From positions 1 to 39,770 of the forward strand of contig JANQMN010000022.1 of the NCBI GenBank assembly GCA_028280065.1: a DNA stretch of 39,770 nt, read 5' to 3'. Numbering within the stretch: position 1 is the stretch's first letter; every line of letters begins with the position of its first letter. The notes under the pieces are model-generated. The model did not search any database. It worked only from the letters and a program-made list of their open reading frames with translations, and was not told where the DNA came from. Position numbers and translations under genes: made by a program. Shown one piece after another: positions 6,379 through 38,272 of the stretch. This DNA is from Hahella sp. Lineage in GTDB: Bacteria > Pseudomonadota > Gammaproteobacteria > Pseudomonadales > Oleiphilaceae.

Positions 6379-7182
6379 ATGGAAAGCTTATTCGAACTCT
6401 CTGAAGCCTTCCTTCAACTAAGTAAAATTCTAGTGACCATGGTTACCGTGATCGGTCTTGCTTGGGTCGCGGAGCGTATCAGTACAAGATGGGCCAGCCT
6501 TCTCTCCGGATTTCCGCTCGGCACCGCCATTGCCCTGGTTTACCTGGGAATCGAACAGGGGGCCGAGTTTGCGGGGCAGAGCGCGCAATATACCCTCCTG
6601 GGATTTATTTCTGCACAATGGCTATCGTTGGCATATCTATTAGCCTGCCGTTGGCGTTACAGTCTGATGATCGCGCCAATCGCAGCGATCAGTTGTTTTG
6701 CGCTGTGCAACTGGATACTTGGTTTCGTTTCCCTGGACCTTTGGGGCAACTTCGCATTATGTAGCCTGACCACGGCTCTATTTGCCATGGGCTATCGCTA
6801 TCTGCCCAGCGAAGAAATCAGTCGCAATACACAGATGACCCCGGCAGAGTTATTCATCCGGGCGTTGGCATCGGCGCTCATTATCGTGCTGATCACCCTG
6901 TTGGGACATTTGGGAAATTCTCTGATCGCCGGGTTGTTTGCCGCATTTCCCATCACCTATATGCCACTGCTTGTAATTATTCACTACCACTATGGCCGTT
7001 CCGCTGCCAAAGCCATGATCAAGTATTATCCTCTTGGTTTGGGAGCACTCATTATCCACACCCTAATCGTCGCCCTTAGCTACGCGAATGACGGAATTAT
7101 GTTGGGTACGCTTTTCGGGTTTCTAGGCGCAATTGGTTATCTTGGCATGCTGGCCCTACTCAGGCGTCAACCAAGCGTTTGA
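6379..7182 (+). CDS. Integral membrane protein with an internal duplication, function unknown
   Basis: A 267-residue, strongly hydrophobic protein with about eight membrane segments. It appears to be built of two halves. The stretch around RWASLLSGFPLGTAIALVYLG (about 37-57) recurs as NSLIAGLFAAFPITYMPLLV (about 179-198), each ending in a helix with a Gly-rich, FP-containing turn. This points to an inverted or tandem repeat transporter-like fold, but I do not recognise the family. The ATG is 98 bases after the DUF2470 stop. No neighbour hints at a substrate. Confidence 0.72.
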   Translation: MESLFELSEAFLQLSKILVTMVTVIGLAWVAERISTRWASLLSGFPLGTAIALVYLGIEQGAEFAGQSAQYTLLGFISAQWLSLAYLLACRWRYSLMIAPIAAISCFALCNWILGFVSLDLWGNFALCSLTTALFAMGYRYLPSEEISRNTQMTPAELFIRALASALIIVLITLLGHLGNSLIAGLFAAFPITYMPLLVIIHYHYGRSAAKAMIKYYPLGLGALIIHTLIVALSYANDGIMLGTLFGFLGAIGYLGMLALLRRQPSV

Positions 7183-24000: not shown

Positions 24001-24875
24001 CCTGGGTCTCCCTGGCTTGGAGTATGTTCCACCTTTTCGGAAGTTTCCCGGTTCTGTTGTTGCAGGCAATAATCGGTGTCAGAGCACTGGTACCGGCGGC
24101 GACCACGGTCGTCAATAATGATTTCATCGAGAAAACTGCCGGTCGCGCCGCAAAGGGCACAGCAACCCTCCCAGCGCTGGGGTTCAAAGGGGAAGTCTTC
24201 AAAATCCAGCGACTCGACATCCGTATAGGGCGGGATGGCATACAAACGCTTCTCTCGACCAGCGCCAAACACCATTAACGCCGGGCTTTGATGCAACTTT
24301 GGATTATCGAACTTCGGGATCGGCGAGGGGTCCATGACATAACGGCCATTCACCTTCACCGGGTAGGCATAGGTCGTCGCCACATGGCCATATCTGGCAA
24401 TATCCTCATACAGTTTCACATGCATGATGCCGTACTCGCTTAACGCATGCATTGTGCGGGTTTCAGTTTCCCGCGGTTCGATAAAGCGCAACGGTTCAGG
24501 AATCGGCACTTGAAAGACCAGAATCTGTCCTGCCTTGACCGGAATTTCCGGAATTCTGTGGCGGGTTTGGATCAGCGTCGCTTCGGTTGTACGCGTGGTC
24601 GTTTTCACTCCGGCAACATTCTCGAAAAAAGCGCGAATGCTTACTGCGTTAGTCGTGTCGTCAGCGCCTTGATCGATAACCTTCAAATAATCCTCTTTAC
24701 CGATCAGAGCCGCCGTAACCTGCATTCCCCCGGTACCCCATCCATAAGGCATCGGCATTTCCCGGCCGCCAAAAGGTACCTGGTAGCCGGGAATGGCAAC
24801 CGCTTTGAGCAAACAGCGCCGGATCATCCGCTTGCTTTGCTCATCCAGATAGGCGAAGTTATAGCCGGTCTCCAT
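23997..24875 (-). CDS. phnJ: PhnJ, carbon-phosphorus lyase (radical SAM)
   Basis: 292 residues. It breaks the C-P bond of ribose 1-alkylphosphonate 5-phosphate using an Fe-S cluster, SAM and a glycyl/thiyl radical. The conserved C-terminal cysteines are all present: C239 and C242 in CCALCG, C264 in YQCSD and C270 in TDYC. They match E. coli C241, C244, C266 and C272 by constant offset. The Gly-rich PYGWGTGGMQ is near residue 43. The start overlaps the phnI stop (TAATG), so translation is coupled. An about 20-residue tail after the last Cys is polar and variable. All core residues being intact, this should be an active lyase. Confidence 0.95.
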   Translation of the reverse strand: METGYNFAYLDEQSKRMIRRCLLKAVAIPGYQVPFGGREMPMPYGWGTGGMQVTAALIGKEDYLKVIDQGADDTTNAVSIRAFFENVAGVKTTTRTTEATLIQTRHRIPEIPVKAGQILVFQVPIPEPLRFIEPRETETRTMHALSEYGIMHVKLYEDIARYGHVATTYAYPVKVNGRYVMDPSPIPKFDNPKLHQSPALMVFGAGREKRLYAIPPYTDVESLDFEDFPFEPQRWEGCCALCGATGSFLDEIIIDDRGRRRYQCSDTDYCLQQQNRETSEKVEHTPSQGDPG

Positions 24876-26086
24876 TAGCCTGTAACCTCATCCGGGCGGT
24901 CAGCTTGTTGCTGGCGTTCTGAGTCCGTTGCCGCACTTGCGGATTGCTGCCGAAACTCCTGTTGCAGCCTTCGCAATAGCTCCAGTTCGCTTTGAAAATC
25001 CACATAGTGCGGCAGCTTTAAATGGGAGACGAATCCGGAAGACTCGACATTATCGCAATGGGCGAGGACAAACTCGTCGTCTTGAGCAGGGGCATCGATA
25101 GATTCACCGAGTTCCCTGGCGCGCAGTGCCCGGTCCAACAAGGCTACCGACATGGTTTTACGCTCGGCCCGGCCAAAACTTAGCCCATAACCCCGCGTGA
25201 ACCGGGGAGCAAGCTCCCGATTACCTGAAAATTGATTGACCATTTCGCATTCGGTGACATGCATGACACCAATCACAACCGGTTCGGTCAAATCCTCACG
25301 CTCGATCAAAATCTCCACTTCGCCGCTACGAATCTCCCCGGCAAACGGATGATTGCGTCCGTAACCACGCTGCGTGGAATAAGCCAGCGCCAGCAAATAG
25401 CCTTCGTCTCCACGCGCCAACGCCTGTAATCGCGCGGAACGGTCTGCCGGAAACTGCAAGGGCTCTCGGGTGATATCCGAAGGTTGACGGTTTTCCGTTC
25501 GTGCATCCTGACTGTTACATCTATCAGCAACTTCGACTGCGTCGTCTGCGCCTTCTACCAGCGACTGTGCACCAAGCATCTCCAGCACTCTGGGATAGCA
25601 ATTGGTTCCGGCACTATCACAAACCTTTTTGGGTTCACCGGCTTGATCAGTGTCGTTGCAGACGCATTCGGTTTCTCCATTCGCCAACAGGGTAAAGTCA
25701 AGCAGGCGATGGGTATAATCATAAGTCGGCCCTAAAACCTGACCGCCGGGCAGATCTTTAAACGTGGCCGAAATGCGCCGCTCCACCTGCATTTTACTGG
25801 TTGCCAAAGGCAGGGTTTCTCCAAACTTGGGCAAGGTGGTTCGATAAGCGCGAAGCAGAAAAACAGCCTCGGTTAAATCGCCGGCCGCCTGTTTAATCGC
25901 GAGTGCCGCCAGTTCAGGGTCATAGACGGAACCCTCATTCATCACCCGGTCAACGCTCTGCCAAAGCTGCTCCTGAATCTGTTCGACGCTTAACTCCGGC
26001 ACCGCCGGATCACCCCGGCGCAGATCCTTGAGATGCTTATGCGCAGCCCGAATAGCCTTTTCACCGCCTTTCACTGCGACGTACAT
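24875..26086 (-). CDS. phnI: PhnI, C-P lyase core subunit with a cysteine-bearing insert
   Basis: 403 residues against about 354 in E. coli. With PhnG, PhnH and PhnL it installs the phosphonate on ribose in place of adenine of ATP. Conserved blocks: MYVAVKGGEKAI at the start, PTYDYTHRLLDFTLLANGE (about 120-138), GYGRNHPFAGEIRSGEVEI (241-259) and HCDNVESSGFVSHLKLPHYVDF (about 343-364). The extra length lies mostly between 138 and 205 and contains C141, C143, C156, C163 and C190. A polar Gln/Ser-rich tail ends the protein. The ATG has GGAGG eight bases ahead, and the gene overlaps the end of phnH by 16 bases. Confidence 0.93.
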   Translation of the reverse strand: MYVAVKGGEKAIRAAHKHLKDLRRGDPAVPELSVEQIQEQLWQSVDRVMNEGSVYDPELAALAIKQAAGDLTEAVFLLRAYRTTLPKFGETLPLATSKMQVERRISATFKDLPGGQVLGPTYDYTHRLLDFTLLANGETECVCNDTDQAGEPKKVCDSAGTNCYPRVLEMLGAQSLVEGADDAVEVADRCNSQDARTENRQPSDITREPLQFPADRSARLQALARGDEGYLLALAYSTQRGYGRNHPFAGEIRSGEVEILIEREDLTEPVVIGVMHVTECEMVNQFSGNRELAPRFTRGYGLSFGRAERKTMSVALLDRALRARELGESIDAPAQDDEFVLAHCDNVESSGFVSHLKLPHYVDFQSELELLRRLQQEFRQQSASAATDSERQQQADRPDEVTG

Positions 26087-26718
26087 TTAACAGCCTCCAA
26101 GGAGGTCGATCTGGGAATGACCAGAAATTCTTCCTGCCGACAAAAGATAAAATCAAGACCGAGCGGAAATAGCTGCCGGTTTTCCTGCATGGCAGGCAAC
26201 CAAGCGCTGCTCAAGCCAGGCAGGCTAACTGTCCGGATGTCGGCAAATCCAGGGCCTGAGCAGGCTAGGTGCAACATCGCACCGGTGTTAGCTGCAGTCC
26301 CCAGAGATAGATCAACTAAACAAGTGGCCGAGCGGTCCGGATACTCAGGAGTCCCAATCGCCAACCCCTTTAACAAGTCCGCGTCGGCACTTGTGAGGAG
26401 GGCGAACTGCGCCTGACTTGCGATCTCGACAATCGGACTGGCCGTATAAAACTTAATTGCCGTTGTTAACGGATGCCTTTCCGGATCGTCCGCTGCGATC
26501 ATGGCCGGACTCAGCCAAACCGGTGTTTCGACATCGCAGAGGGTGAGCAAAATAGTCCATAAACTACTTGAAATCGACGTTGGTGTATTAATGGCACCGA
26601 GGCTGGCCCAACGGCCAGGTCGGGAAAACCCCTCCAGAAGATACCGATAGCACTGTTGCGATTGCTCGACCGGATTCTCGAAACCGCTTTGATACAGCCC
26701 TTCCGCCGCGAAAGCCAT
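26071..26718 (-). CDS. phnH: PhnH, C-P lyase core subunit
   Basis: 215 residues. The family start pattern GFENPVEQSQQCYRYLLEGFSRPG is clear, and DVETPVWL and a Gly-x-x-x-P-rich core (GTPEYPDRSATCLVDL) follow. PhnH has a PLP-transferase-like fold without PLP and is part of the G2H2I2J2 core complex. It starts 9 bases after phnG and overlaps phnI by 16 bases. Length is normal (E. coli 194). Cysteine content is moderate, unlike PhnI. Confidence 0.92.
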   Translation of the reverse strand: MAFAAEGLYQSGFENPVEQSQQCYRYLLEGFSRPGRWASLGAINTPTSISSSLWTILLTLCDVETPVWLSPAMIAADDPERHPLTTAIKFYTASPIVEIASQAQFALLTSADADLLKGLAIGTPEYPDRSATCLVDLSLGTAANTGAMLHLACSGPGFADIRTVSLPGLSSAWLPAMQENRQLFPLGLDFIFCRQEEFLVIPRSTSLEAVKCTSQ

Positions 26719-26727
26719 GCCTGCGCC

Positions 26728-27162
26728 CTATTCACCTCGAACCATGGTCATAAATTCGACGCGCGTCTCGTCCGCTTTCCGCGACGCCTGTTGCCGTTCC
26801 GCATCGTGAGATTCCTGTAAAGCCTGCAACAACTGGCTATAAATAAGCCGCTGCCAGAAATCAATTTGCAGAAGTGCATCCAACAGTGCCAGATGAAACG
26901 CCACCGGTTTATTGCGCCCCAGACGTACACCACGTCCAAGTTCACCGGTTCGCATGAGCACCGTACAGCGGCTAACGGTAACTTCGCCGAAGTTAAACGG
27001 CTGCCCGCACCCGCCGATCCGCCCGCGAACCATCATCAAACCTATCTCTGCAGGCTGGACAATACGATACTCGGGAACCTGTTGCTGATGACGGTCGACA
27101 AAACGCTGTAGCAACGCCGGTTCCGCGCGAGCCAGAAGACTCAAAGCCTGCGTCCGCTGCAT
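26728..27162 (-). CDS. phnG: PhnG, C-P lyase core subunit
   Basis: 144 residues, normal for the family. The conserved block RGRIGGCGQPFNFGEVTVSRC (about 47-67) and a central G-x-G-R-x-K helix (RLGRNKPVAFHLALLDALLQ) are typical. PhnG pairs with PhnI in the core complex and is needed for formation of the ribosyl phosphonate. It starts 3 bases after the phnF stop. The C-terminus is charged and ends in EFMTMVRGE. Confidence 0.9.
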   Translation of the reverse strand: MQRTQALSLLARAEPALLQRFVDRHQQQVPEYRIVQPAEIGLMMVRGRIGGCGQPFNFGEVTVSRCTVLMRTGELGRGVRLGRNKPVAFHLALLDALLQIDFWQRLIYSQLLQALQESHDAERQQASRKADETRVEFMTMVRGE

Positions 27163-27165
27163 TGC

Positions 27166-27897
27166 CTAGTCCCCGCCATCGGGAAGAGAATCGGCCGCCT
27201 CGGCAAAATCAACCCGCATCTGAATATCGCTGGCGCGGCTGCGGGACACCGCATATTCCACAACCCGGCCGGATTCCCCTTCGACGTTAGTGGACCGGAG
27301 TACCAATACCGGTGCCGTTTTCGGGCATCGTAACAAGGTAGCCTCGCGCAGATCGGGTAGTCTGGCCCTGAACACACAGTGCTTTCTGACCGGCCTGATG
27401 CCATAGTGCGTGTCCAAAATCCGATGCAAAGAGCCGCCGAGATACAACTGGTCCAACTTTGGAAATACATCTTTTGGTAAAAAGTGGGAAATAAGGCAAA
27501 GCGGTGTTTCTTCGACTGTACGCAGGGTATCCAGACGCCAAAGATCAGCGCCTTCGGATAGCCGCATGGCCCGCGCCAATTGTCGATCCGCAGGCTGTGT
27601 CATGCACTCCAGCAACTCGGCATGGGTTGCCAGCCCCAAACCGGAAACGATTTCCGTGAACCTGGGCCGATCGCTAACCTGATATTCCATTACATCGTCA
27701 ATGATGAGGGTGCCTTTTCCGTGTTGCCGGAGCACGATCCCTGCCCGTTCCAACTCATCAATTGCTCGCCGCAACGTATGGCGATTGACTGAAAATTGCT
27801 TTGCCAGCGTGACTTCCGATGGCAGGTAATCACCCACTTTAAATGAAGTTTTGATATTTTCCGCGAGCGTTTCCGCGAGTTGCTGATAGACGGCCAT
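27166..27897 (-). CDS. phnF: PhnF, GntR/HutC-family repressor of the phosphonate operon
   Basis: 243 residues. The winged helix (about 12-66) has AKQFSVNRHTLRRAIDELE as the HTH and RQHGKGTLI as wing; a UTRA effector domain fills about 90-235 and ends in RMRVDF-like RMRVDFAEA. PhnF-type proteins repress phn genes until a phosphonate-derived ligand binds. The gene lies inside the operon, between phnE and phnG, with its own PhoB box and a candidate PhnF operator in the 96-base gap ahead of it. The start has GGAAAG about ten bases upstream. The same 12-base operator-like motif occurs before phnC. Confidence 0.9.
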   Translation of the reverse strand: MAVYQQLAETLAENIKTSFKVGDYLPSEVTLAKQFSVNRHTLRRAIDELERAGIVLRQHGKGTLIIDDVMEYQVSDRPRFTEIVSGLGLATHAELLECMTQPADRQLARAMRLSEGADLWRLDTLRTVEETPLCLISHFLPKDVFPKLDQLYLGGSLHRILDTHYGIRPVRKHCVFRARLPDLREATLLRCPKTAPVLVLRSTNVEGESGRVVEYAVSRSRASDIQMRVDFAEAADSLPDGGD

Positions 27898-27930
27898 GAT
27901 AAAGGACTTTCCGGTTGATCTCAGAGAGAC

Positions 27931-27942
27931 ATCTATACAAGT
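27931..27942. promoter_or_regulatory. Candidate PhnF operator upstream of phnF
   Basis: ATCTATACAAGT on the + strand. It is joined to the 12-bp perfect palindrome GTAGATATCTAC (27941-27952). It matches 11 of 12 bases of the motif upstream of phnC (ATCTAGACAAGT on the - strand at 30766-30777). It lies 34 bases before the phnF start, 22 bp from the third PhoB repeat. The claim that PhnF binds here is inference; HutC-type operators do have TTGTxTAGA-like cores. Confidence 0.55.
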
Positions 27943-27964
27943 AGATATCTACCCTTTCCAAGGT

Positions 27965-27993
27965 ATGCCGTTGATATGACAGAAAAGTGACAC
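27965..27993 (-). promoter_or_regulatory. PhoB-box array (second phn promoter, upstream of phnF)
   Basis: On the - strand the array reads GTGTCAC-TTTT-CTGTCAT-ATCA-ACGGCAT: three 7-base repeats spaced by 4 bases, the last weak. The first two form an almost consensus Pho box (CTGTCAT N4 CTGTCAT). The box begins directly after the phnE stop codon and faces phnF. Confidence 0.72.
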
Positions 27994-28794
27994 TCAAATG
28001 AATTTTTTTCGTATGCGCTGGGATAGGATATCGGTACAGGTGACAGTCGCAATAATGATAATCATCACCGCACAGGTTTCCGGGAACATAAAGCCACGAA
28101 TGCTTTCCCACAAAATAACGCCGATCCCGCCGGCGCCAACCATGCCCACCACCGAAGCGGAACGGACATTCGACTCGAAACGGTAAAGAGAATAGGAAAT
28201 CCAAAGCGGCAATACTTGCGGAATAATCCCATAAATGACTTCCTGCAGTGCACTTGCGCCCGTGGCTCGGACGCCCTCCACCGGTCCGGGTTCTATTGCT
28301 TCCACCGCTTCGGAAAACAGTTTTGCCAGCACCCCCGTGGTATGAACGAATAGCGCCAGCACTCCGGCAAATGGTCCAAGACCCACGGCAACGACGAATA
28401 GCATGGCAAATACCATTTCGTTAATCGCCCGGGCGGCATCCATTAAGCGGCGGACTGGTTGATAGATCCACCAGGGCACGACGTTTTCCGAGGACAGGAT
28501 TCCTAAGGGAATGGCAAAAACGATAGCCAACAGAGTCCCCCATATCGCAATTTGAAAGGTGACAATCGTTTCTTCTAAATAGAGCCGCCAATCGCGGAAA
28601 TTAGGCGGAAAAAAATCGGCAGCAAAAATACCCATATTGCTGCTGTCCGCCCATAGCGCCATTGGCCGCATTTCCGCTCCTTCCCAGGACCAGGCCAACA
28701 CGGCCAGAATCAGTCCCCAAAGGAACAGATTCATGGTTTTTTTCAAAGCGCTTTGGTCTTGCGGCAAAGCAGCGGACAGAGCATTTTCGGCCAT
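27994..28794 (-). CDS. phnE: PhnE, phosphonate ABC transporter permease
   Basis: 266 residues from the ATG at 28794; a TTG at 28824 would add ten residues. There are about six membrane segments and a permease EAA-type loop at [20 protein letters not shown] first hydrophobic helix ([15 protein letters not shown]) anchors the N-terminus. A single uninterrupted permease is present, unlike the frameshifted phnE of E. coli K-12. It couples PhnD-bound phosphonate import to the PhnC ATPase. A 72-base gap with a strong hairpin (28829-28856) separates it from phnD. Confidence 0.92.
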
Positions 28795-28828
28795 GGGATA
28801 ACCTGACAATAAAGAGGGCTTCAAGCGG

Positions 28829-28856
28829 CCGGGGGAGTTCTTTCCAACTCTCCCGG
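28829..28856 (-). other. Stem-loop in the phnD-phnE gap (mRNA stabiliser or partial terminator)
   Basis: CCGGGGGAGTT at 28829-28839 pairs with AACTCTCCCGG at 28846-28856, an 11-bp stem with one G-U pair and a 6-base loop. There is no T tract on the - strand, so it is not a full terminator. Such hairpins after substrate-binding-protein genes commonly let the binding protein be made in excess. Confidence 0.7.
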
Positions 28857-28866
28857 GATATCTGGT

Positions 28867-29859
28867 TTACTGCCAGGCATTCAACGCAGCCAGCTTGCGC
28901 TCGAGACCTTTAAGCTGTGCATCGATGGCAGCAGTTTCCTTAGCTTTCTCGGCACTGCTCATTGCAGTATCGTTTTCGATTTTGACCTTTTGCTTAAATA
29001 GAACCAACTGCCGGATCGGAATCAACTGATTGTTGCTGGAGGGCCGGAACGGTGCCCATTGCAAACCTTTCAGCACCGCAAGCTCACGGGCATCGCCGGT
29101 AGTGCCATAGGTCATGAAGAAGGTGTAAACCTTATCCTTGAGCAAGTCATCCAAAGAAGTGCGCCAAACGATCGGATCGGAAGGAATCAACGGCGACTTC
29201 CAAATAATCTTAATATTCTCCACCATCTCCGGCTTGGTGACCTGTAGACGGCGATAGTTTTCGGTATTATTCGTCGCGAAGTCGACCTTGCCGGTAGCAG
29301 CGGCCAGCAGGTTGGTTTCATGGTTGGAATTCAGCACCCGCTTGAATATTTTCTTCGGATCATCCACTCCCTGATTGGCAAACACATAATAAGAAGGCAC
29401 CAGGAACCCGGATGTCGAATTGGGATCGCCATTGCCGAAAACCAGATCGCCCGGATTGCGGAAGATGTCTTCGAGACTGTTCAACTTACTATCTTTCCGG
29501 GTCACCAGCAGCGACCAGTAACCTGGATTGCCGTCTGAGTCGACAGTCTGGGCAAAGATTTCACCGCCGGCGCGATCCACGGCCTCCATCGCGGACTTGT
29601 TGCCAAACCAGGCGACATCGACCTTGTCAAAACGCATGCCCTGGATAACGCCAGCATAATCCGGGGCAAAAAAAGCCTTCACCTCGACACCGATGTCTTT
29701 TGCCATATCCTGCAGAAACGGGTCCCATATCGTCCGTAGGTTTTGCGATGATTCGGTCGAGATAATGCCGAAATTCAAAACCTTATCGTCCGCTTGAGAC
29801 ATACCCGCAGCAAGAGCGCAGGTAAGTACGGCAAGGCCTTGCTTAATTTTTTTGAACAT
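28867..29859 (-). CDS. phnD: PhnD, phosphonate ABC transporter substrate-binding protein
   Basis: 330 residues from the ATG at 29859, which has GGAGG seven bases ahead; the frame extends to 29913 but lacks a ribosome site there. The N-terminus is a Sec signal peptide (KKIKQGLAVLTCALAAGMSQA, cleavage near SQA-DD). The mature protein shows the phosphonate-binding fold: LNFGIISTESSQNL, then DYAGVIQGMRFDKVDVAWFG and DPNSTSGFLVPSYYVF, whose Ser/Thr run (STSG) normally holds the phosphonate group. A C-terminal helical tail is Ala/Lys/Glu-rich. It is periplasmic and feeds PhnE/PhnC. Confidence 0.93.
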   Translation of the reverse strand: MFKKIKQGLAVLTCALAAGMSQADDKVLNFGIISTESSQNLRTIWDPFLQDMAKDIGVEVKAFFAPDYAGVIQGMRFDKVDVAWFGNKSAMEAVDRAGGEIFAQTVDSDGNPGYWSLLVTRKDSKLNSLEDIFRNPGDLVFGNGDPNSTSGFLVPSYYVFANQGVDDPKKIFKRVLNSNHETNLLAAATGKVDFATNNTENYRRLQVTKPEMVENIKIIWKSPLIPSDPIVWRTSLDDLLKDKVYTFFMTYGTTGDARELAVLKGLQWAPFRPSSNNQLIPIRQLVLFKQKVKIENDTAMSSAEKAKETAAIDAQLKGLERKLAALNAWQ

Positions 29860-29909
29860 GACGCCTCCATAGTTTCTTTGGGTTGTAGAAATTTTGCATA
29901 GTTGCCACA

Positions 29910-30743
29910 TCATGCGGCGGATGGTTGCAAGGAACCGATTTTTCCACTGCCGGCTTCTTCGACCCTCTCCAAATGGGATACGCCATAGAGATTATTGAGC
30001 GTTGCCGGTGTTAACTCGGAGGCCGGCCCGTCAAACACGATTCTACCGTTGTTCAGGGCAATTGCCCGCTGGCAATATTTCAGGGCGTATTCCACCTGGT
30101 GCAAGGTAACGATGACGGTGCGCTTATCTCTTTCATGTATGTCCTTGAGCGTTTCCATCACCCGCCTGGCCGCTTCCGGGTCCAGGGAAGCGATGGGTTC
30201 ATCCGCCAGTAACAGCCGTGCCTGTTGGGTCAGCGCCCGGGCGATCGCAACCCGTTGCTGCTGCCCGCCGGATAGTGTCGATGCGCGCTGTAAGGCAAGT
30301 TCCGCTAAGCCGACTCGTTGCAACGCCGTCACAGCCATCGCCCGTTCTTGGTGGGTGAACAAGCCCAGGCTACCCCGCCAGCGTGGCGTACGCCCCAGTC
30401 TGCCAAGCAGCACGTTGCGCAGGACAGTGAGTCGACCAATGAGATTGAATTGCTGAAAGATAAATCCTATTTGCGCGCGCTGTCGGCGAATATTGCTATT
30501 GAGTTTGCCACGACACTGCACTGTTTCTCCCAGCACCTGAATCGGGCCGGAGGTCTTGTCCGCCTGAACCAAACCGCCGACGTGACGTAATAACGTTGAC
30601 TTACCGGATCCAGACGGTCCTATCAGGGCAACCATTTCACCCTGCTGAATCTTCAGATCCACTTCGTTCAGCGCAACCGTTTTGTGTTTTGCCCTGACAT
30701 GAAAGGACTTGGTAAGCTTCTCAATTTCCACCGCTACCGACAT
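29910..30743 (-). CDS. phnC: PhnC, phosphonate ABC transporter ATPase
   Basis: 277 residues. Walker [11 protein letters not shown] loop [15 protein letters not shown], signature LSGGQQQR, Walker [13 protein letters not shown], and switch His in [10 protein letters not shown]. The ATG has AGGAG nine bases ahead. It is the first gene of the leftward phosphonate operon, behind the PhoB and PhnF-operator region at 30766-30839. Length is slightly above average through an about 20-residue C-terminal tail. It imports phosphonates and possibly organophosphate esters in partnership with PhnD and PhnE. Confidence 0.93.
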
Positions 30744-30765
30744 ACAGGAGCTCCAGGATTGGACA

Positions 30766-30777
30766 ACTTGTCTAGAT
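30766..30777. promoter_or_regulatory. Candidate PhnF operator upstream of phnC
   Basis: ATCTAGACAAGT on the - strand, adjoining the perfect palindrome CTAGATCTAG (30772-30781) and the dyad GACAA-C-TTGTC just downstream. It is 11/12 identical to the motif before phnF. It lies 22 bases after the last PhoB repeat, just downstream of the -10 box, where a bound repressor would cover the transcription start. Confidence 0.6.
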
Positions 30778-30783
30778 CTAGCG

Positions 30784-30789
30784 ATTCTG
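30784..30789 (-). promoter_or_regulatory. -10 element of the phnC promoter
   Basis: CAGAAT on the - strand lies exactly 10 bases after the last PhoB repeat, the geometry of PhoB-dependent promoters, which do without a -35 box. Predicted start near 30777. Confidence 0.55.
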
Positions 30790-30799
30790 GTGAGAACTC

Positions 30800-30839
30800 A
30801 TGACAGTATCATGTCTGTCATATGACACTGAATTGACAG
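30800..30839 (-). promoter_or_regulatory. PhoB-box array upstream of phnC (four 11-bp-spaced repeats)
   Basis: On the - strand: CTGTCAA, GTGTCAT, CAGACAT and CTGTCAT, each separated by 4 bases. The consensus unit is CTGTCAT; the third is the weakest. The first pair is a strong Pho box, and the last repeat sets the -10 spacing. The array faces phnC and leaves 13 bases to the start of the divergent DUF2489 gene. Confidence 0.8.
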
Positions 30840-30852
30840 GAAAGAGCAAAGA

Positions 30853-31314
30853 ATGAATGAAATGACGCAAATTGCCCTCATTATTCTCGGTACAGGCGTC
30901 TGCCTGGTACTCAGCATGGTCATTTACAAACAATGGCGGCAGTTACAGCGGACCAAAAGACTCGAAGCCCTGCAAAGGGAAAAACTAGCCACCTCGAGAG
31001 TAGGCGCGGCGGACAGCATTAAAGTACTGGCAAGGTGCATTTTGGCCGAACAAGTGGAACTTTCGGAAGCCTGTATCCGGATCAAGGTGCTCCTCGATGT
31101 GCTGGACCCTAGCATGCATGAACAGGCCGGCCTTAATATTTTTAACCGGATATACGAAGCCACTGCCCATATGCCGACCCACCAGGCCCGAAAAAAGGTG
31201 GATAAGCGTTTTTTATGGAAGCTGGACAAACAGCGCTGGTCACTGGAAAAGGAGCATCAACAAGAGATTTTAGAGGGAGCTGAAAGGCTATTGCAGCATC
31301 CGGCGCTGAAGTAA
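30853..31314 (+). CDS. DUF2489 protein, single-pass membrane protein
   Basis: 153 residues. One N-terminal membrane helix (about 7-26, IALIILGTGVCLVLSMVIYK) is followed by a charged linker and the DUF2489 domain with SIKVLARCILAEQVELSEACIRIKVLLD (positions about 55-82). AGGAAAGAG precedes the ATG. Function is unknown. It is divergent from phnC, and its start is only 13 bases from the PhoB array, so its promoter must overlap that region or lie further left. Convergent with a small gene at 31341, with a perfect palindrome between. Confidence 0.82.
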   Translation: MNEMTQIALIILGTGVCLVLSMVIYKQWRQLQRTKRLEALQREKLATSRVGAADSIKVLARCILAEQVELSEACIRIKVLLDVLDPSMHEQAGLNIFNRIYEATAHMPTHQARKKVDKRFLWKLDKQRWSLEKEHQQEILEGAERLLQHPALK

Positions 31315-31344
31315 CTAGTGTAGTGTCCCGGGACACTACACTAG
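31315..31344. repeat. Perfect 30-bp palindrome between convergent genes
   Basis: CTAGTGTAGTGTCCC followed by its exact reverse complement, with no loop. It starts one base after the DUF2489 stop codon and covers the stop codon of the gene on the other strand. A stem of this size can act as a bidirectional terminator although no T tract follows on either side. A protein-binding site or a mobile-element remnant are alternatives. Confidence 0.75.
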
Positions 31345-31571
31345 AGTTCAGTTAGGATTTGCTGCAATTCAAGCAGGGTATCCTGCTTATGCGATCTCAT
31401 CACATCTTGAGGTTGTCGGAAATAAAGTGCTTCAAACTGGGTGACGCAATCCACCAACTCTTTCGCCGGCTTAGTCGTATCGTCTGCCGCTTCCATTCTC
31501 AATCCTTTAAACATGTCTTCGACGTGGCGGGTTTGTTTGGCGTTGGTGATGAGATCAGTTAATCGCGGCAT
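31341..31571 (-). CDS. Small protein downstream of the sigma-54 activator gene, unknown function
   Basis: 76 residues from an ATG at 31571 (MPRLTDLITNAKQTRHVEDMF and a C-terminus LLELQQILTEL). It is acidic, helical and without a signal peptide. The frame continues to a GTG at 31694 that overlaps the activator's stop codon as GTGA, adding 41 residues (Phe/Tyr/Asn-rich, unlike coding sequence). I favour the shorter form, but coupled translation of the long form cannot be ruled out. No family recognised. Confidence 0.5.
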   Translation of the reverse strand: MPRLTDLITNAKQTRHVEDMFKGLRMEAADDTTKPAKELVDCVTQFEALYFRQPQDVMRSHKQDTLLELQQILTEL

Positions 31572-31690
31572 TACCGGGTATCCAGGAGTATCAAAACAGC
31601 AGATTGCCTGCCATTCATAGAAAACAACTTGAATATTGTAATGCAAGGTACTGTTAAAATTAAGCAAAAAAGATTTTCTTATCGTTGAAA

Positions 31691-33595
31691 TCACCCCGCT
31701 TCTATAGTTTTAGACTTGAACTCGGACGGATCAATTTGCAGCCGCTTAATTCGGGAAGCAAGTGTCGTGGGTTTCAGGCCCAGTAGCTCAGCGGCCCCCT
31801 CTTTTCCGAAGACCTTCCCTTTGGTTTGCTTTAACGCTTCCACAACACTGGTGACTTCCTGGCGCTTGCGCTCGGCTTCGGTAAGCAGATTGGCAGAGGC
31901 AATATCCGGCTGTTTGTTAATGGATAAGGGTTGTGAAATGAACTCATCGAATTGGAGCGTGCCGTCCTGAGATAGTATCACTTGCCGCTCGATGATGTTT
32001 TCCAGTTCGCGAATATTGCCCGGCCAATGATAACTTTTCAGCTTTTCCAATTGTCCGAGAGAGATCCGCATGCGGCCTTTACTGGCCCGTCGACTGGCCT
32101 TTTGCAGGAAATGCTGTGCCAATACGGGAATGTCCTCAATCCGGTTTCGCAACGGCACGGATTCAATGGGGAACACATTTAACCTGAAATAGAGATCTTC
32201 TCGAAACGCACCTCCCTCTACCAGCTTGGAAAGATCTCTGTTTGTCGCGGCCAATATCCGGACATTGACTTTCCGGGTCTTTGCTTCCCCCACCCTTTCC
32301 AACTGTTGTTCCTGCAGCACCCGCAGCAACTTGCCTTGCAAAGCCAAGGGGATTTCACCTACTTCGTCGAGAAAAAGGGTACCTCCATCGGCGAGTTCAA
32401 AGCGCCCGGGCCGCTCGGCTACCGCGCCGGTAAACGCACCTTTGGCATGGCCGAAAAATTCACTTTCAAATAAATCAGCGGGAATCGCAGCACAGTTAAC
32501 CCGAATCAACGAGCGCTTGCCCCGCTGACTCAAGTCATGGATAGCCCTGGCAATGAGTTCCTTGCCGGTTCCCGATTCCCCGCTAATTAACACCGTGGCG
32601 TCGGTAGGAGCCACCAGTTCGATTTTTTGAATGACACTGGAAATTGCGGCGCTCTTGCCGACGATTTGGTGGTGATTGAATTTCGAGTTAATTTCCTCTT
32701 GGAGATAAGCATTCTCCATTTCCAGACGTCGCTTCAAGCTTTCGACCTCCTGCAGCGCACCCAATAACTTGTGCTGCGCATTCTTTTTTTCGGTTACGTC
32801 ACGGAAAATCACCACCGCGCCTACGATATGGCCATTGTCTTTGATAGGCGTACTCGTGTATTCGACATCTATCGGCGAACCATCCTTACGCCAGAAAACG
32901 TCGTCATCCACCTGGGTTACAATGCCTTCGCGAAACGCCTGGTAGATCGGGCATTCGGCGACGTGGTAGTGGCTGCCGTCGGCATGCCGAAAGTGAATCA
33001 GGGCATGTATGTTTTTGCCGATCAATTCCTCGGTTTGCCAACCTAGAAGCCGTTCCGCCGCAGGATTCACGAAGCTGGTGAGACCGTCTGCATCGACACC
33101 GTAAATGCCTTCACCGGCTGCATTCAGAATAAGTTGGTTTTCCTTTTCGAACTCTTGAAACACCATCGCCATCCGTTGCCATTGTCCGATTCCGGATCGA
33201 TAGTGGCGATGGGCTTCCCCTCGATTTCGCTGGCGCATCAACTGCTCCGCATCCTGGATGGTCATTAACAATTGCGGCCCTTGGTCGGAGTCGACCGCCC
33301 GCGCAGCGACTTCCACCCGTATCTTTTCTCCCGAAGCGGGCTTGGTAACTGTTAGCGTGTCAGACCAAGCGTGCCCCTTAAGAATTGCTTCGTCCGTGAA
33401 AACCACCAACTCCGCCAGGGCGTCCCGAAACAAATTGCTGGCTGACGATTTCTCCAAGGCCGGACGTTCTGCTTGAAAAAACTTGCAGGCTTCGGCATTC
33501 ACGGCCAAAACACTGTTCGCCTCGGGCAGCATCAATAGCTGTGCCAAAGGCGCGTTCCAGAAAGCTGTTTGTACGACTAAGTCCAATGGATTCAC
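31691..33595 (-). CDS. Sigma-54-dependent activator with two PAS-like domains, likely regulator of the cyanate operon
   Basis: 634 residues. N-terminal PAS-like region (about 10-115), second PAS (about 152-268, ILNAAGEGIYGVDADGL), coiled coil (about 275-305), AAA+ domain (about 308-540) with Walker A GESGTGKE (339-346), the sigma-54 contact loop GAFTGA (386-391) and Walker B GGTLFLDEVG (404-413). A Fis-type HTH is at the C-terminus (EGAAELLGLKPTTLASRIKRL). There is no receiver or GAF domain; the PAS domains probably sense a ligand or redox state. The start is GTG at 33595; a TTG at 33586 has AAGGTG ahead of it and may be used. It is divergent from the transporter-cyanase operon, with a sigma-54 promoter and four inverted repeats between. 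Confidence 0.9.
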   Translation of the reverse strand: MNPLDLVVQTAFWNAPLAQLLMLPEANSVLAVNAEACKFFQAERPALEKSSASNLFRDALAELVVFTDEAILKGHAWSDTLTVTKPASGEKIRVEVAARAVDSDQGPQLLMTIQDAEQLMRQRNRGEAHRHYRSGIGQWQRMAMVFQEFEKENQLILNAAGEGIYGVDADGLTSFVNPAAERLLGWQTEELIGKNIHALIHFRHADGSHYHVAECPIYQAFREGIVTQVDDDVFWRKDGSPIDVEYTSTPIKDNGHIVGAVVIFRDVTEKKNAQHKLLGALQEVESLKRRLEMENAYLQEEINSKFNHHQIVGKSAAISSVIQKIELVAPTDATVLISGESGTGKELIARAIHDLSQRGKRSLIRVNCAAIPADLFESEFFGHAKGAFTGAVAERPGRFELADGGTLFLDEVGEIPLALQGKLLRVLQEQQLERVGEAKTRKVNVRILAATNRDLSKLVEGGAFREDLYFRLNVFPIESVPLRNRIEDIPVLAQHFLQKASRRASKGRMRISLGQLEKLKSYHWPGNIRELENIIERQVILSQDGTLQFDEFISQPLSINKQPDIASANLLTEAERKRQEVTSVVEALKQTKGKVFGKEGAAELLGLKPTTLASRIKRLQIDPSEFKSKTIEAG

Positions 33596-33643
33596 CTTTC
33601 ATCTATAGCGTTCTTGAGAGTGCTTTCAAGACTCAGGCCAAAC

Positions 33644-33723
33644 TACGAAAAGTCGTAAAAAATTTCCACGAGAAGTCGTAATTCACGAAATTTCGTAGCA
33701 TCCTCACACTTCGAAAAATCGAA
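33644..33723. promoter_or_regulatory. Four inverted-repeat sites, probable upstream activator sequences
   Basis: TACGA-AAAG-TCGTA at 33644-33657; CACGA-GAAG-TCGTA at 33667-33680; CACGA-AATT-TCGTA at 33684-33697; TTCGA-AAAA-TCGAA at 33710-33723. The shared form is YACGA-N4-TCGTR, with the last site a variant. They lie 46-125 bases upstream of the -24 element, the usual range for sigma-54 enhancers, and 49-128 bases upstream of the activator's own start, so autoregulation is possible. Confidence 0.8.
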
Positions 33724-33768
33724 ATAATTATTTTAATTATCAACAAGTTAAACAAATTTAGCCAAAAC

Positions 33769-33783
33769 TGGCACTGTCATTGC
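33769..33783 (+). promoter_or_regulatory. Sigma-54 (-24/-12) promoter of the cyanate operon
   Basis: TGGCAC at 33769-33774, five bases, TTGC at 33780-33783. This is the textbook consensus TGGCAC-N5-TTGC with the invariant GG and GC 12 bases apart. Predicted start near 33795. Confidence 0.9.
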
Positions 33784-33842
33784 CCAGAAAGAAACAAAGG
33801 CCTGTTTTTTTAATAGTGTCACGCAAATAGATTCATCGCGGT

Positions 33843-33876
33843 TTGCGCGCACGAACCAACTAAGTGCGAGGCGCAA
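33843..33876 (+). other. Stem-loop in the 5' leader of the cyanate operon
   Basis: TTGCGC (33843-33848) pairs with GCGCAA (33871-33876), and GCAC (33849-33852) with GTGC (33864-33867); a GAG bulge lies on the right side and the loop has 11 bases. No T tract follows. It could affect leader stability or bind a regulator; no known riboswitch class is recognised. Confidence 0.45.
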
Positions 33877-33943
33877 GATGCATGCACCAGGCAAGAGAAT
33901 TCAGCAACCACCGAAAATCGTTTAACGCAAAGAGGAAAGCAAC

Positions 33944-35416
33944 ATGACCAACAAGAGCTTAGGCAATCCCTACGACGGTGATATACGGCTAACCCACACT
34001 GTTGGCTGCACGTGCAATGACTGCCGAACCAAACACTTGAATATCAGCGACAGGCAGCGTACCAAGTTGTTGGAGCAACAAGCAGAAAACATGGCGAGCA
34101 GCGATTCAACTGCCCTGTCGGATCCAGGCTCTGGCAACGAACAGTTTGCAAGTTCGGAAGAGATGCTTGACCGGGTTGTCGAAAACGCCATCGTCCGGGG
34201 TGTATTCAACCAGCATGACGCCAGCCGGCGTAAGTTTATCAAACTGGTTGGCGGAGGCACGTTCGCTGCCGCCTTGGCTTCCGTTCTGCCGATGGAACAA
34301 ATCAAAGCCGCTGTGAAGGAAACCACCGGCAAACTGGAAAAAACCAAACTCAAAGTCGGCTTTGTTCCGATAACCTGCGCAACTCCGATCATCATGGCCC
34401 ATCCCTTGGGCTTCTACAGCAAATACGGTCTGGATGTCGAAGTGATCAAAACCGCCGGTTGGGCGGTGGCCAGGGATAAGTCTTTGAATGGCGAATACGA
34501 CGCTTCGCATATGCTGACACCGATGCCGCTTGCCATGACCCTTGGCGCAGGATCGACCGCCGAACCTTACATCATGCCGGCAGTGGAAAATATCAATGGG
34601 CAGGCCATCGTGTTGCACAACAAACACAAGGACAAGCGTGATCCGAAACAGTGGAAAGGATTCAAGTTCGGTGTGCCGTTCGACTATTCCATGCACAATT
34701 TCCTACTGCGTTACTACGTCGCCGAGCATGGCATCGATCCCGACCAGGACATCCAAATTCGGGTTGTTCCGCCACCGGAAATGGTGGCAAACCTGCGCGC
34801 GGGCAACCTGGACGGCTATCTGTCCCCCGATCCTTTCAACCAGCGTGCCGTCTATGAAAAAGTCGGATTTATTCATATCCTCACCAAGGATATCTGGGAG
34901 GGCCACCCCTGTTGTGCGTTCGCCTGTAGCCAGAGATTCGCCACGGAAATGCCCAATACCTACGCGGCGTTGTTCAAATCCATCGTGGATGCAACACACT
35001 ACTCGGCAAAATCCGAAAACCGGGAAGAAATATCCAAGGCCATCGCACCGAAAAACTATCTCAACCAGCCTGAAATCGTTATTCGTCAGGTCCTCACCGG
35101 GCGCTATGTCGACGGTTTGGAGAAGAAGGTTCACGACGTGCCGGACCGCATCGACTTCGATCCCTTCCCCTGGCACTCGATGGCCGTGTGGATTCTGACG
35201 CAGATGAAACGATGGGGGTATATCAACGGCGATGTCGACTACAACAGGATAGCCGAGCAGGTCTACGTGGCGGAAGAAACCAGCGAAGTGATGCGCAAAC
35301 TGGGCTATGAACCACCATCCAAGACCTACGAAAAGTACACCATCATGGGCAAGACCTTCGACTATGCCAAGCCCGATGAGTACGTCAACAGCTTTGCCAT
35401 CAAGAGGGTTTCCTAA
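33944..35416 (+). CDS. NrtA/CmpA-type ABC transporter substrate-binding protein (probably cyanate), Tat signal with long N-terminal extension
   Basis: 490 residues. The start is secured by GAGGA nine bases ahead. The first 93 residues are unusual: polar, with a cysteine group C22, C24, C27 (GCTCNDC). A Tat motif SRRKFIK (94-100) and hydrophobic stretch follow, so the export signal is internal. The mature part (from about 128) has the NrtA/CmpA pattern: KLKVGFVPITCATPIIMA, PYIMPAVENINGQA, DYSMHNFLLRYY. It is the periplasmic binding protein of the permease and ATPase downstream. Cyanate is inferred from the cyanase gene in the same operon; nitrate or another small anion is the alternative. Its stop overlaps the permease ATG. 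Confidence 0.88.
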   Translation: MTNKSLGNPYDGDIRLTHTVGCTCNDCRTKHLNISDRQRTKLLEQQAENMASSDSTALSDPGSGNEQFASSEEMLDRVVENAIVRGVFNQHDASRRKFIKLVGGGTFAAALASVLPMEQIKAAVKETTGKLEKTKLKVGFVPITCATPIIMAHPLGFYSKYGLDVEVIKTAGWAVARDKSLNGEYDASHMLTPMPLAMTLGAGSTAEPYIMPAVENINGQAIVLHNKHKDKRDPKQWKGFKFGVPFDYSMHNFLLRYYVAEHGIDPDQDIQIRVVPPPEMVANLRAGNLDGYLSPDPFNQRAVYEKVGFIHILTKDIWEGHPCCAFACSQRFATEMPNTYAALFKSIVDATHYSAKSENREEISKAIAPKNYLNQPEIVIRQVLTGRYVDGLEKKVHDVPDRIDFDPFPWHSMAVWILTQMKRWGYINGDVDYNRIAEQVYVAEETSEVMRKLGYEPPSKTYEKYTIMGKTFDYAKPDEYVNSFAIKRVS

Positions 35417-36240
35417 TGTCGTTAAATCTGCGGGCGACAGTGGTTTCCCTATTATTTCTGATTATCGTCCTGGGAATCTGGGAAACCCTGAATCAGCCAC
35501 CCGAAGCCACCGAAGCATTGTCGGAATATGAGTTATTGATGGGCGGCGCGGATCAGGAAGCGCGGGTTCCACCGCCTTCTCAAGTTGCCGAGCACGCCTG
35601 GTCGGAACTGAGCAATCCATTCTACGATGCGGGTCCTAACGATAAAGGAATCGGCATACAGCTCGCCTATTCGCTGTATCGGGTATTGACCGGATACTTC
35701 GCCGCCGCCTTGATCGCAATCCCTTTGGGATTCGTCATCGGGATGTCGCCATTGATGTACAAGGCATTAAATCCCTTTATCCAGATCCTTCGGCCGATCT
35801 CCCCGTTGGCATGGATGCCTTTGGCTTTGTTTGTCATAAAAGACTCCGAACGATCGGCAATCTTTGTAATTTTCATCTGTTCCATCTGGCCGATGCTGAT
35901 CAACACCGCGTTTGGTGTCGCCAACGTCAGAAACGACTGGGTGCGGGTTGCCCAAACCCACGAGCTAAGCCCCCTACGCACAGCGTTCACGGTAATACTT
36001 CCAGCGGCCGCGCCGACCATTCTCACCGGCATGCGGATATCCATCGGCATCGCCTGGCTGGTCATCGTCGCGGCTGAAATGCTGGTCGGCGGAACCGGCA
36101 TCGGCTACTACGTTTGGAACGAGTGGAACAACCTGGATTTAAACAGTGTAATTTTCTCAATTTTGATGATCGGCTTCGTGGGAATGTTGTTGGACATGGC
36201 GTTGTCCGGCGTTTCACGACTGGTCCAGTACGAGGAGTAA
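35416..36240 (+). CDS. NrtB-type ABC transporter permease (probably cyanate)
   Basis: 274 residues. The start overlaps the stop of the binding-protein gene (TAATG). One N-terminal helix, a soluble segment of about 60 residues, then five further helices. The permease EAA-type loop lies at RVAQTHELSPLRTAFTVILP, and GGTGIGYYVW near the C-terminus is typical of NrtB/SsuC permeases. The EAA-like loop contacts the ATPase encoded next. It belongs to the sigma-54-driven operon with cyanase. Confidence 0.9.
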   Translation: MSLNLRATVVSLLFLIIVLGIWETLNQPPEATEALSEYELLMGGADQEARVPPPSQVAEHAWSELSNPFYDAGPNDKGIGIQLAYSLYRVLTGYFAAALIAIPLGFVIGMSPLMYKALNPFIQILRPISPLAWMPLALFVIKDSERSAIFVIFICSIWPMLINTAFGVANVRNDWVRVAQTHELSPLRTAFTVILPAAAPTILTGMRISIGIAWLVIVAAEMLVGGTGIGYYVWNEWNNLDLNSVIFSILMIGFVGMLLDMALSGVSRLVQYEE

Positions 36241-36241
36241 G

Positions 36242-37162
36242 ATGATGACAAAGCCATTCTTATCCATTGAAGGCTTGACGAAACGCTTCTCCGCCAAAGG
36301 CAAAGCGGAAGACTTAGTGGTTTTCGACGATGTTTTTCTCAATATCGAGCAGGGGGAATTCGTCTGCATCATTGGCCATTCCGGCTGTGGCAAATCCACC
36401 ATCCTCAATATTCTGGCAGGTCTCGACGAACCGACCTCCGGCGGCGTCATCATGGATGGCAAGGAAATCGCCGGACCAAGTCTAGACCGCGGCGTGGTGT
36501 TTCAAAACTATAGCCTGCTACCTTGGTTATCCGCGCTTCAGAATGTGATCTTCGGCGTCAAGGCCCGCTGGCCAAATTGGACCAAGGGCAAGGTTGAAGA
36601 ACATAGCAGGAAGTATCTGGAGATGGTCGGTTTAGGCGCATCGATGCACCGCAAACCCGCCCAATTGTCAGGCGGTATGCGGCAACGCGTTAGTATTGCC
36701 CGCGCCTTCGCCACCCAACCAAAATTACTGCTGCTGGACGAACCGTTCGGCGCGCTTGATGCCCTGACGAGAGGAGTGATTCAGGACGAACTGATCAAAA
36801 TTTGGAGCGAATCCCACCAGACGGTCTTTATGATCACCCACGATGTGGACGAAGCCATATTGCTGGCAGACAGAATATTGCTGATGACCAACGGCCCCAA
36901 CGCCCGCGTCGCCGAATCGGTAAAAGTCAGTCTGCCGCGACCAAGAGAGCGAGCCCAGATCATCGAGCATCCGGGTTATTACAAGATCCGCAACCACCTG
37001 GTCAACTTCCTTGTGAAACGATCCGGCGAACTCGCAGGAACAAAAAATAGCGATCGGCAACACCCGGAAAATATCGACCCTTTAGCGGAATCGCCCGAAC
37101 CGGTCCCGGCAGATCCGCCGGCAAGGGCTAAGTCTGACCGGCCGTTACGTTCGGTCAGTTGA
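36242..37162 (+). CDS. NrtD/SsuB-type ABC transporter ATPase (probably cyanate)
   Basis: 306 residues. GAGGAG precedes the ATG pair at 36242/36245. Walker [11 protein letters not shown] loop [18 protein letters not shown], signature LSGGMRQR, Walker [13 protein letters not shown] and the switch His in MITHDVDEA. It is closest to nitrate/sulfonate/taurine-type ATPases. A C-terminal tail of about 45 residues (Pro/Glu/Asp-rich, from about 262) goes beyond the ABC fold. It lies one base after the permease stop and 79 bases ahead of cynS. Confidence 0.92.
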
Positions 37163-37241
37163 GAATTTCATGCCGGTTCCGGAAATAACGGGAAAAGAAC
37201 GGCACTTTAACCTCACTAAAACAAACCTGGAGATACCTACG

Positions 37242-37682
37242 ATGGATAAACTAACGATGACCGACACCATTGTGTCCAAAAAACTGGAAAAAGGCCTCAC
37301 ATGGGAGCAAATGGGCAGTGAACTGGGAATGTCGCCAGTGTGGCTGGCCTCTGCCTGCCTTGGTATGAACAGCGCTCCTCCCGAAAAAGCCGCGGCGATT
37401 GCCGAATATCTGGGACTGGATGCCGAAGTCGTAACTGCATTGGAAGCATTTCCAACCAAAAAATGGGACCAAACGGTGCCGACGGACCCCTTGATTTATC
37501 GGCTCTACGAAATCGTCGGTGTTTATGGCGATACCTTGAAAGAGGTAATCCAGGAGAAGTTCGGCGACGGCATTATGAGTGCAATTGACTTCTCAATGGA
37601 AGTGGACAAAGAGGAAAATCCGAAAGGCGATCGGGTACTCCTGACCCTGAATGGCAAATTCCTGCCTTATAAGTCCTGGTAG
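37242..37682 (+). CDS. cynS: Cyanase (cyanate hydratase)
   Basis: 146 residues from the ATG at 37242, which has GGAG ahead. The frame opens 24 codons earlier (37170) but that part has no ribosome site and lacks family likeness. Catalyses cyanate plus bicarbonate to ammonia and CO2, allowing cyanate to serve as nitrogen source. The catalytic trio is intact: R87 and E90 in YRLYEIVGVYG and S113 in DGIMSAIDF, matching E. coli R96, E99 and S122. The N-terminal helical domain is present. Length is a little short of E. coli (156). It shares the sigma-54-driven transcript with the transporter genes. Confidence 0.96.
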   Translation: MDKLTMTDTIVSKKLEKGLTWEQMGSELGMSPVWLASACLGMNSAPPEKAAAIAEYLGLDAEVVTALEAFPTKKWDQTVPTDPLIYRLYEIVGVYGDTLKEVIQEKFGDGIMSAIDFSMEVDKEENPKGDRVLLTLNGKFLPYKSW

Positions 37683-37726
37683 CCAACAGAGTGAATTGAC
37701 CGTCAAATTTTGTTAGCGACACAGTT

Positions 37727-37763
37727 ACCCACCTGGCCGGAAACAAGATTCCGCCTGGTGGGT
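37727..37763 (+). terminator. Hairpin between cynS and the DUF1348 gene
   Basis: ACCCACC pairs with GGTGGGT, and the inner CGGAA with TTCCG, with a 4/3-base internal bubble. Only a weak T-containing run (CGTTTC) follows, so it may stop part of the transcription or protect the cynS mRNA end. Confidence 0.55.
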
Positions 37764-37798
37764 CGTTTCACCCACTATTCTCATAAGAGTTTCTTAGA

Positions 37799-38272
37799 AT
37801 GTCTGAAGAGCAACGCCCGCCTCTGCCGCCTTTCACGGAGGAGACGGCTAAAATCAAGGTACGTAAAGCGGAAGATGCCTGGAATGGAAAAAACCCGGAA
37901 AAAGTATCGTTGGCCTACAGCCCGGACTCCCGCTGGCGCAATCGGGCCGAGTTCCTGCAAGGCCGGCAACAAATTGTCGCGTTTCTGCAACGCAAATGGG
38001 CTCGCGAACTTGATTATCGCCTAATCAAGGAACTGTGGACATACAATGAAAACCGCATCGCGGTGCGGTTTGCCTATGAATGGCGTGACGATAGCGGTCA
38101 GTGGTATCGTTCCTATGGCAATGAAAACTGGCAATTCGATGCACACGGCCTTATGCAAATCCGCATTGCCAGCATCAATGATCTCCCGATCAACGAAGAG
38201 GAACGAAAGTTTCGCTGGCCACAGGGCTCACGGCCTCTCGATCATCCAGGTTTATCGGAACTCGGCTTATGA
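37799..38272 (+). CDS. DUF1348 protein (NTF2/SnoaL-like fold)
   Basis: 157 residues with the DUF1348 pattern: [21 protein letters not shown], then [22 protein letters not shown] and [21 protein letters not shown]. These are cytoplasmic cone-fold proteins with no settled biochemical role. The gene follows cynS by 116 bases, with a hairpin in between, so it may be co-expressed at a lower level. Whether it functions with cyanate metabolism is unknown; the link is positional. Confidence 0.85.

Follow-up and report, generated by a model that had tools for sequence, protein, structure and literature searches.

A CynF-type activator and a conserved array of three dyads, its probable docking sites, at the cyanate operon of Hahella sp.

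The intergenic region upstream of the cyanate-use genes cynABDS in Hahella sp. is very probably a CynF-type control region, in which activator dimers on three ACGA-N4-TCGT dyads would scaffold the AAA+ hexamer that opens the sigma-54 promoter of cynABDS. The switch is of the CynF type, and its regulator has already been characterised; an earlier note on this DNA had taken a dedicated PAS sigma-54 activator of cyanate genes to be new, a view superseded by the published CynF of cynFABDS (PMC6627978). If anything is new, it is not the switch itself but the way the three-dyad code is now defined and its relation to the sites beside other PAS activators.

Layout of the control region and the cyn cluster

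The window, as we call the whole stretch of 39,770 nucleotides analysed here, carries the following features.

31691-33595, minus strand: cynF-type sigma-54 activator gene, GTG start as listed, divergent from the cyn genes
33644-33657, no strand: dyad 1, TACGAAAAGTCGTA, distal putative operator site, exact YACGA-N4-TCGTR
33667-33680, no strand: dyad 2, CACGAGAAGTCGTA, 23 bp after dyad 1, exact YACGA-N4-TCGTR
33684-33697, no strand: dyad 3, CACGAAATTTCGTA, 17 bp after dyad 2 (near-invariant spacing), exact YACGA-N4-TCGTR
33710-33723, no strand: off-consensus dyad TTCGA-N4-TCGAA, probably outside the array, judged from the pattern and the relatives
33769-33783, plus strand: -24/-12 sigma-54-type promoter, TGGCACTGTCATTGC, exact TGGCAC-N5-TTGC
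33944-35416, plus strand: cynA, NMT1/NrtA-like substrate-binding protein, by domain match
35416-36240, plus strand: cynB, ABC permease of the NtrB type, over the curated NCBIfam cut-off
36242-37162, plus strand: cynD, ABC ATPase of the NtrCD type, over the curated NCBIfam cut-off
37170-37682, plus strand: cynS, cyanase, over the curated NCBIfam cut-off
37799-38272, plus strand: DUF1348/SnoaL-like protein downstream of cynS, possible operon member

All three dyads and the promoter sit between the activator gene and cynA. The divergent sigma-54 activator gene, the cynABDS genes and the -24/-12 sequence upstream of cynA together form the arrangement of a CynF-controlled cynABDS cluster, while no LysR-type gene, as a CynR-type locus would carry, was matched beside the cyn genes among the 10 proteins of 28867-38272 that were scanned. 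Much of the earlier description is borne out by these data: the cyanate-type operon by the scores of its permease, ATPase and cyanase, the consensus promoter at 33769 by its exact match, and the divergent PAS/AAA+ activator by its domain matches and the GAFTGA motif in its sequence. The family models match CynS only from residue 25-29, so its true start is probably the ATG near 37242. For the activator, an alternative TTG start at 33586 has a better-placed AAAGGTG by eye. The DUF1348/SnoaL-like gene is also found 3' of cynS at some related loci. On the other side, phosphonate-use genes adjoin the cyn region (24875-30743 of the window, minus strand), with PhnD and PhnC assigned by family models and the remainder by eye.

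In the 6.68-Mb genome, exact YACGA-N4-TCGTR occurs at 8 places, 3 of them within 54 bp at the cyn locus, and two dyads 17 bp apart occur a single time, also there, which is consistent with a local switch. Four other single dyads (L001-L004, with the place on contig C66 set aside) were rejected as regulon members, having neither a second exact dyad nor a sigma-54 site nearby. The promoter is the sole exact copy of TGGCAC-N5-TTGC within the window, and would place the transcription start of cynA near 33795; rpoN had one match in the genome.

The earlier note had counted four YACGA-N4-TCGTR repeats, of which those at 33644, 33667 and 33684 stand and the one at 33710 does not. The latter is a perfect dyad by itself, and its own pattern occurs once in the window, here, against 0.07 expected occurrences. 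An extra dyad 20-45 bp past dyad 3 is not conserved in the relatives described below: the window and only 3 others of 77 have one within 2 mismatches of 8, and their sequences differ. Breaking the pattern and lacking conservation, this site was rejected as a fourth array member, and the conserved unit of the putative operator is three dyads, not four.

Conservation of the array and its association with the activator

The earlier note had staked its reading on conservation of the dyads beside orthologous activators. From a scan of genome contigs we took the best 80 relatives of a longer list, with 51-68% identity to the window activator. Divergently upstream of the activator, cynA or cynS was present in 78/80 and a cynS match in 72/80; L064 and L114 had neither cynA nor cynS within the stretch examined. 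The best three-dyad array, with a first step of 20-24 and a second of 15-19, was then sought in 79 intergenic regions (that of L114, 15 bases long, was dropped). In 76/79 regions the best array had no more than 5 mismatches in its 24 positions, and in 27 of these it had zero, whereas the best among 1580 dinucleotide-shuffled controls was 6 mismatches, reached 3 times. The dyads are conserved, as that note had required. In the 72 arrays that had 4 mismatches or fewer, the steps were 22/17 (38), 21/17 (23), 23/17 (10) and 22/18 (1), so that the second step was 17 bp in 71 of them. The three exceptions differ in kind. L111 had no array (10 mismatches) despite a CynF-type protein and cyn genes, while L057 (9 mismatches) and L068 (7) had dyads changed symmetrically to ACGC..GCGT, with the usual 22/17 steps kept; co-evolution of these changed dyads with the recognition helix was not supported, the helix being unchanged.

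A promoter-like GG-N10-GC site lay downstream of the array with a score of at least 8 in 78/80 regions and at least 9 in 76/80 (window included, and with the search for L057, L068 and L111 anchored on poor arrays), compared with 145/1600 and 32/1600 shuffles of the same stretches reaching 8 and 9. L064 and L072 had no such downstream promoter. Jumps of 11 bp in Pseudomonas (69/80) and in Colwellia (80/91) might point to helical phasing between dyad 3 and the promoter, but the resultant climbs steadily with period from 9.5 to 12, the distance in Halomonas and its kin is 95 bp, and the lineages are related, so we make no claim of it.

These distances bear on the idea that the main role of the dyads is to let CynF repress its own gene, with cynA activated through other sites. 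Divergent activators often autoregulate, and in the window dyad 1 is about 50 bp upstream of the cynF start. However, dyad 1 lies anywhere from 2 to 316 bp from the activator (to the start of the blast match, not the start codon), whereas dyad 3 and the -24/-12 site are mostly 69-71 or 78-84 bp apart, and we consider this explanation very improbable.

Two scans that did not start from the activator used the pattern of two exact dyads 17 bp apart, which is strict and misses arrays with mismatches. Paired dyads were found in 7/369 genomes of the class, at 9 places (reversed control 0), and in 11/398 genomes of the phylum (reversed control 1). Across both scans, all 16 distinct genomes had such a site beside a CynF-related sigma-54 activator, and cynA or cynS was also at the site in 3/7 class genomes and 11/11 phylum genomes. 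Two of the nine class places (L122, L123), both in G194, were about 4 kb away from the activator of that genome. Because every genome with paired dyads had the activator adjoining, the code is likely usable for target finding; the CynF-type DNA code appears defined well enough to find targets in new genomes.

Starting instead from cyanase, cynS exceeded its cut-off in 24/229 class genomes. The 23 genomes besides our own gave 24 stretches (L177-L200) with 25 cynS matches, some stretches being ended by contig ends; 4 genomes with below-cut-off matches were left out, and the limit of 5 mismatches was taken from the array search in the relatives. The array (0-5 mismatches) was present in 5/5 stretches with full-length CynF and in 0/19 without it (7-9 mismatches anywhere, both strands), a split of 1 in 42504 by hand if the loci are independent. 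This set overlaps the relatives at L198, the same locus as L049, and at L188, from the genome of L116. We may conclude that the array of candidate sites follows CynF, not the cyn genes. In L177 and L180 there is no dyad array, and the sigma-54 activator near cynABDS is a different one, about 40% identical and lacking the N-terminal part of CynF.

This result weighs against the proposal that the dyads belong to another regulator of cyanate genes (NtrC, CynR of the LysR type, a global factor) while CynF acts elsewhere. Ammonium repression in Pseudomonas has indeed been ascribed by its authors to the Ntr system (PMC6627978), but both the absence of the array from the 19 stretches and the presence of dyads at loci that have no cyn genes but an activator with a similar helix (PTTLASR) speak for the CynF-type activator, and leave the proposal very improbable indeed.

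Full-length CynF was found in 0/6 same-genus genomes searched (G001-G006), whose best activator matches (E 1e-75 to 1e-78) covered the AAA+ part only. Since these genomes lack it, the cyn cluster is patchy, and the window genome may have gained cluster and switch together.

The activator and a possible wider dyad code

Family models assign PAS, Sigma54_activat and AAA lid domains to the activator, and the GAFTGA motif and Walker A in its AAA+ sigma-54 interaction domain, together with a C-terminal Fis-type HTH, mark it as an enhancer-binding protein. Two N-terminal regions are delimited as follows.

Residues about 15-115: first PAS-like region, from predicted strand/helix order
Residues 153-267: second PAS domain

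The full-length structure model had a mean pLDDT of 81.3 and a pTM of 0.42, and all 50 among the Foldseek matches listed were sigma-54 activator structures; the strand/helix order of the model suggests that the N-terminal region is a second PAS-like fold. H197, H201 and C215 of the second PAS (residues 197-215, window 32951-33007) are invariant in 45 aligned proteins and could bind a metal or cofactor. That they make up a site specific to cyanate or a metal was rejected, as these residues also occur in relatives with other targets, paralogues included. Against the equivalog cut-offs, the protein scored 314.1 of 558.6 bits for NtrC (PAS, no receiver domain) and 360.5 of 476 for NorR (PAS, no GAF), and so falls short of both.

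A tree of the last 350 residues (38 rows, including 25 of 81 CynF-type proteins, midpoint root) placed the window activator with CynF of Pseudomonas and of other cyn clusters, in a 27-row group with Pseudomonas L092 and L098 and two plasmid rows; its support was 94/92, short of the 95 that earns the tool's star, and some branches are long, the plasmid rows among them. The activator of L127 (PTTLADR, exact dyads) falls in the tree among activators that have no exact dyads, so helix, tree and dyad are not everywhere in accord.

The putative operator dyad is not specific to cyanate, since some activators have it at loci that hold no cyn genes: in G168, G194 and G402, exact dyads accompany PAS-PAS sigma-54 activators with the recognition helix PTTLASR, and the 14-16 kb around these dyads gave no cyn gene matches. 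At one such locus (L125, G194 C2:190000-206000), dyads at 7077, 7094, 10943, 10960, 11493 and 11510 form three paired sites in about 4.5 kb around the activator. The neighbouring genes resemble, by eye, those for an amine oxidase, a cupin and a DsrE-type protein, and the whole is an uncharacterised regulon that uses the CynF code. A 48% identical activator on an Acinetobacter plasmid (L136) adjoins a Nit1C-type cluster and three dyad-like sites, which are spaced 22/18 and depart from the pattern at 1, 2 and 1 positions of 8. At the Loktanella locus (L137), one activator has cynABDS on one side and Nit1C-type genes on the other; it is accompanied by two exact dyads at a 17 bp step, and by no clear third dyad.

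The Acinetobacter and Loktanella loci raise the question of whether the activator is cyanate-specific at all, or instead answers cyanide, nitrile or nitrogen shortage, the cyn operon being one output. We think this unlikely: in the own genome paired exact dyads are solely at the cyn locus, whose adjacent operon holds cyanase, and in P. pseudoalcaligenes (oleovorans) CECT5344 cyanase activity was 176 without nitrogen, 2677 with cyanate and undetected in the cynF mutant (Table 1, PMC6627978).

The paralogues in the own genome (L124, contig C59) and in L129-L131 have recognition helices PPSTLRSK or KPSTLTYR, as against PTTLASR, and no exact ACGA-N4-TCGT. Their loci hold sites with one or two mismatches, such as CACGATATATCGCG, intergenic and upstream of nearby -24/-12 sites. 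The near-dyads beside these paralogous PAS activators, of the form GCGATATATCGC or ACGATATTTCG, lie at the following positions.

L124, 5522-5636
L131, 6077-6121
L129, 7143-7187
L130, 6955-6985

They are perhaps a sister operator code. With near-dyads of this kind beside them, the paralogues serve badly as a negative control, and they suggest that a CGA-N4-TCG code may be more widely shared. It is conceivable, if somewhat short of probable, that a clade of PAS sigma-54 activators (CynF, NitA-like and several uncharacterised) reads one code in variants that share the core CGA-N4-TCG and differ in the flanks, TACGA..TCGTA for CynF, TAYGA..TCATA for NitA-like activators and GCGATATATCGC-like beside the paralogues, with a three-dimer scaffold and a rigid 17 bp step in the case of CynF. 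We judged this likelier once near-dyads turned up beside paralogues. If it is true, cyanate, cyanide and other operons could be cross-wired in hosts with several such switches.

Proposed mechanism and comparison with known systems

What the DNA itself shows is how the region is laid out, that the array is conserved and that it goes with the activator; the three dyads are probably docking sites of the CynF-type activator. In the mechanism we propose, the window activator would be a CynF orthologue or close relative whose dimers bind the three ACGA-N4-TCGT dyads, with centres at about -144, -121 and -104 from the putative start. Enhancer sites commonly lie at such distances upstream. Three bound dimers would serve as the scaffold that nucleates the AAA+ hexamer, as described for NorR; the PAS region would receive the signal, which in Pseudomonas is cyanate present and ammonium absent; and the hexamer would then contact sigma-54 RNA polymerase at the -24/-12 site and open the cynABDS promoter. 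We infer in particular that CynF binds the dyads, that each hexamer takes three dimers, that PAS senses the signal directly and that the operon depends on RpoN in Hahella. The step between dyads 2 and 3 is nearly fixed at 17 bp, which is not a whole number of helical turns, and this suggests that neighbouring dimers touch directly on different DNA faces; it offers a testable geometry for the assembly of activator dimers.

The closest known system is cynFABDS of CECT5344, which the Hahella locus resembles in gene order, orientation, a Fis-type sigma-54 activator and a putative sigma-54 promoter before cynA. In the published account, as far as it is drawn on here, the divergent activator CynF is essential for cynABDS expression, the cynF mutant is without cyanase activity and does not grow on cyanate, and the operon is induced by cyanate and repressed by ammonium (PMC6627978). 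Four Pseudomonas relatives, L092, L098 (P. mendocina, called 97-98% identical to CECT5344 in PMC6627978), L099 and L101, have the array with 23/17 spacing, and their activators, which stand in for that of CECT5344 in this comparison, are 54-55% identical to the window activator. No published description of the triple dyad was found in the CynF literature within our scope, which lay outside Figure S1 of PMC6627978 and the 2008 paper.

FhlA of E. coli was the best NCBIfam match of the window activator by score (383.9 bits), far below the equivalog cut-off of 830. Its recognition helix RTTLLSRM resembles that of the window activator, and the one FhlA target pattern that was searched had no match at the hyc-hyp-fhlA region. 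The thiocyanate dehydrogenase cluster of Thioalkalivibrio is accompanied by a sigma-54 regulator that belongs to a two-component system (PMC5744179). NorR shares with our system the divergent activator and the three enhancer sites, which at norVW of E. coli are required for activation and hexamer assembly (PMC2941729). The comparison concerns this layout, and NorR has a GAF domain binding NO where the window protein has PAS.

NitA of the Nit1C cyanide-assimilation cluster is likewise a divergent Fis-type sigma-54 regulator; unlike CynF, it controls a nitrilase cluster (PMC11049912). The sites beside the Acinetobacter activator, one locus named NitA by position only, read TACGA..TCATA and TATGA..TCATA, in comparison with the strict TACGA..TCGTA of CynF. 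A code so similar beside a NitA-like activator would tie the control of cyanate use to that of cyanide use.
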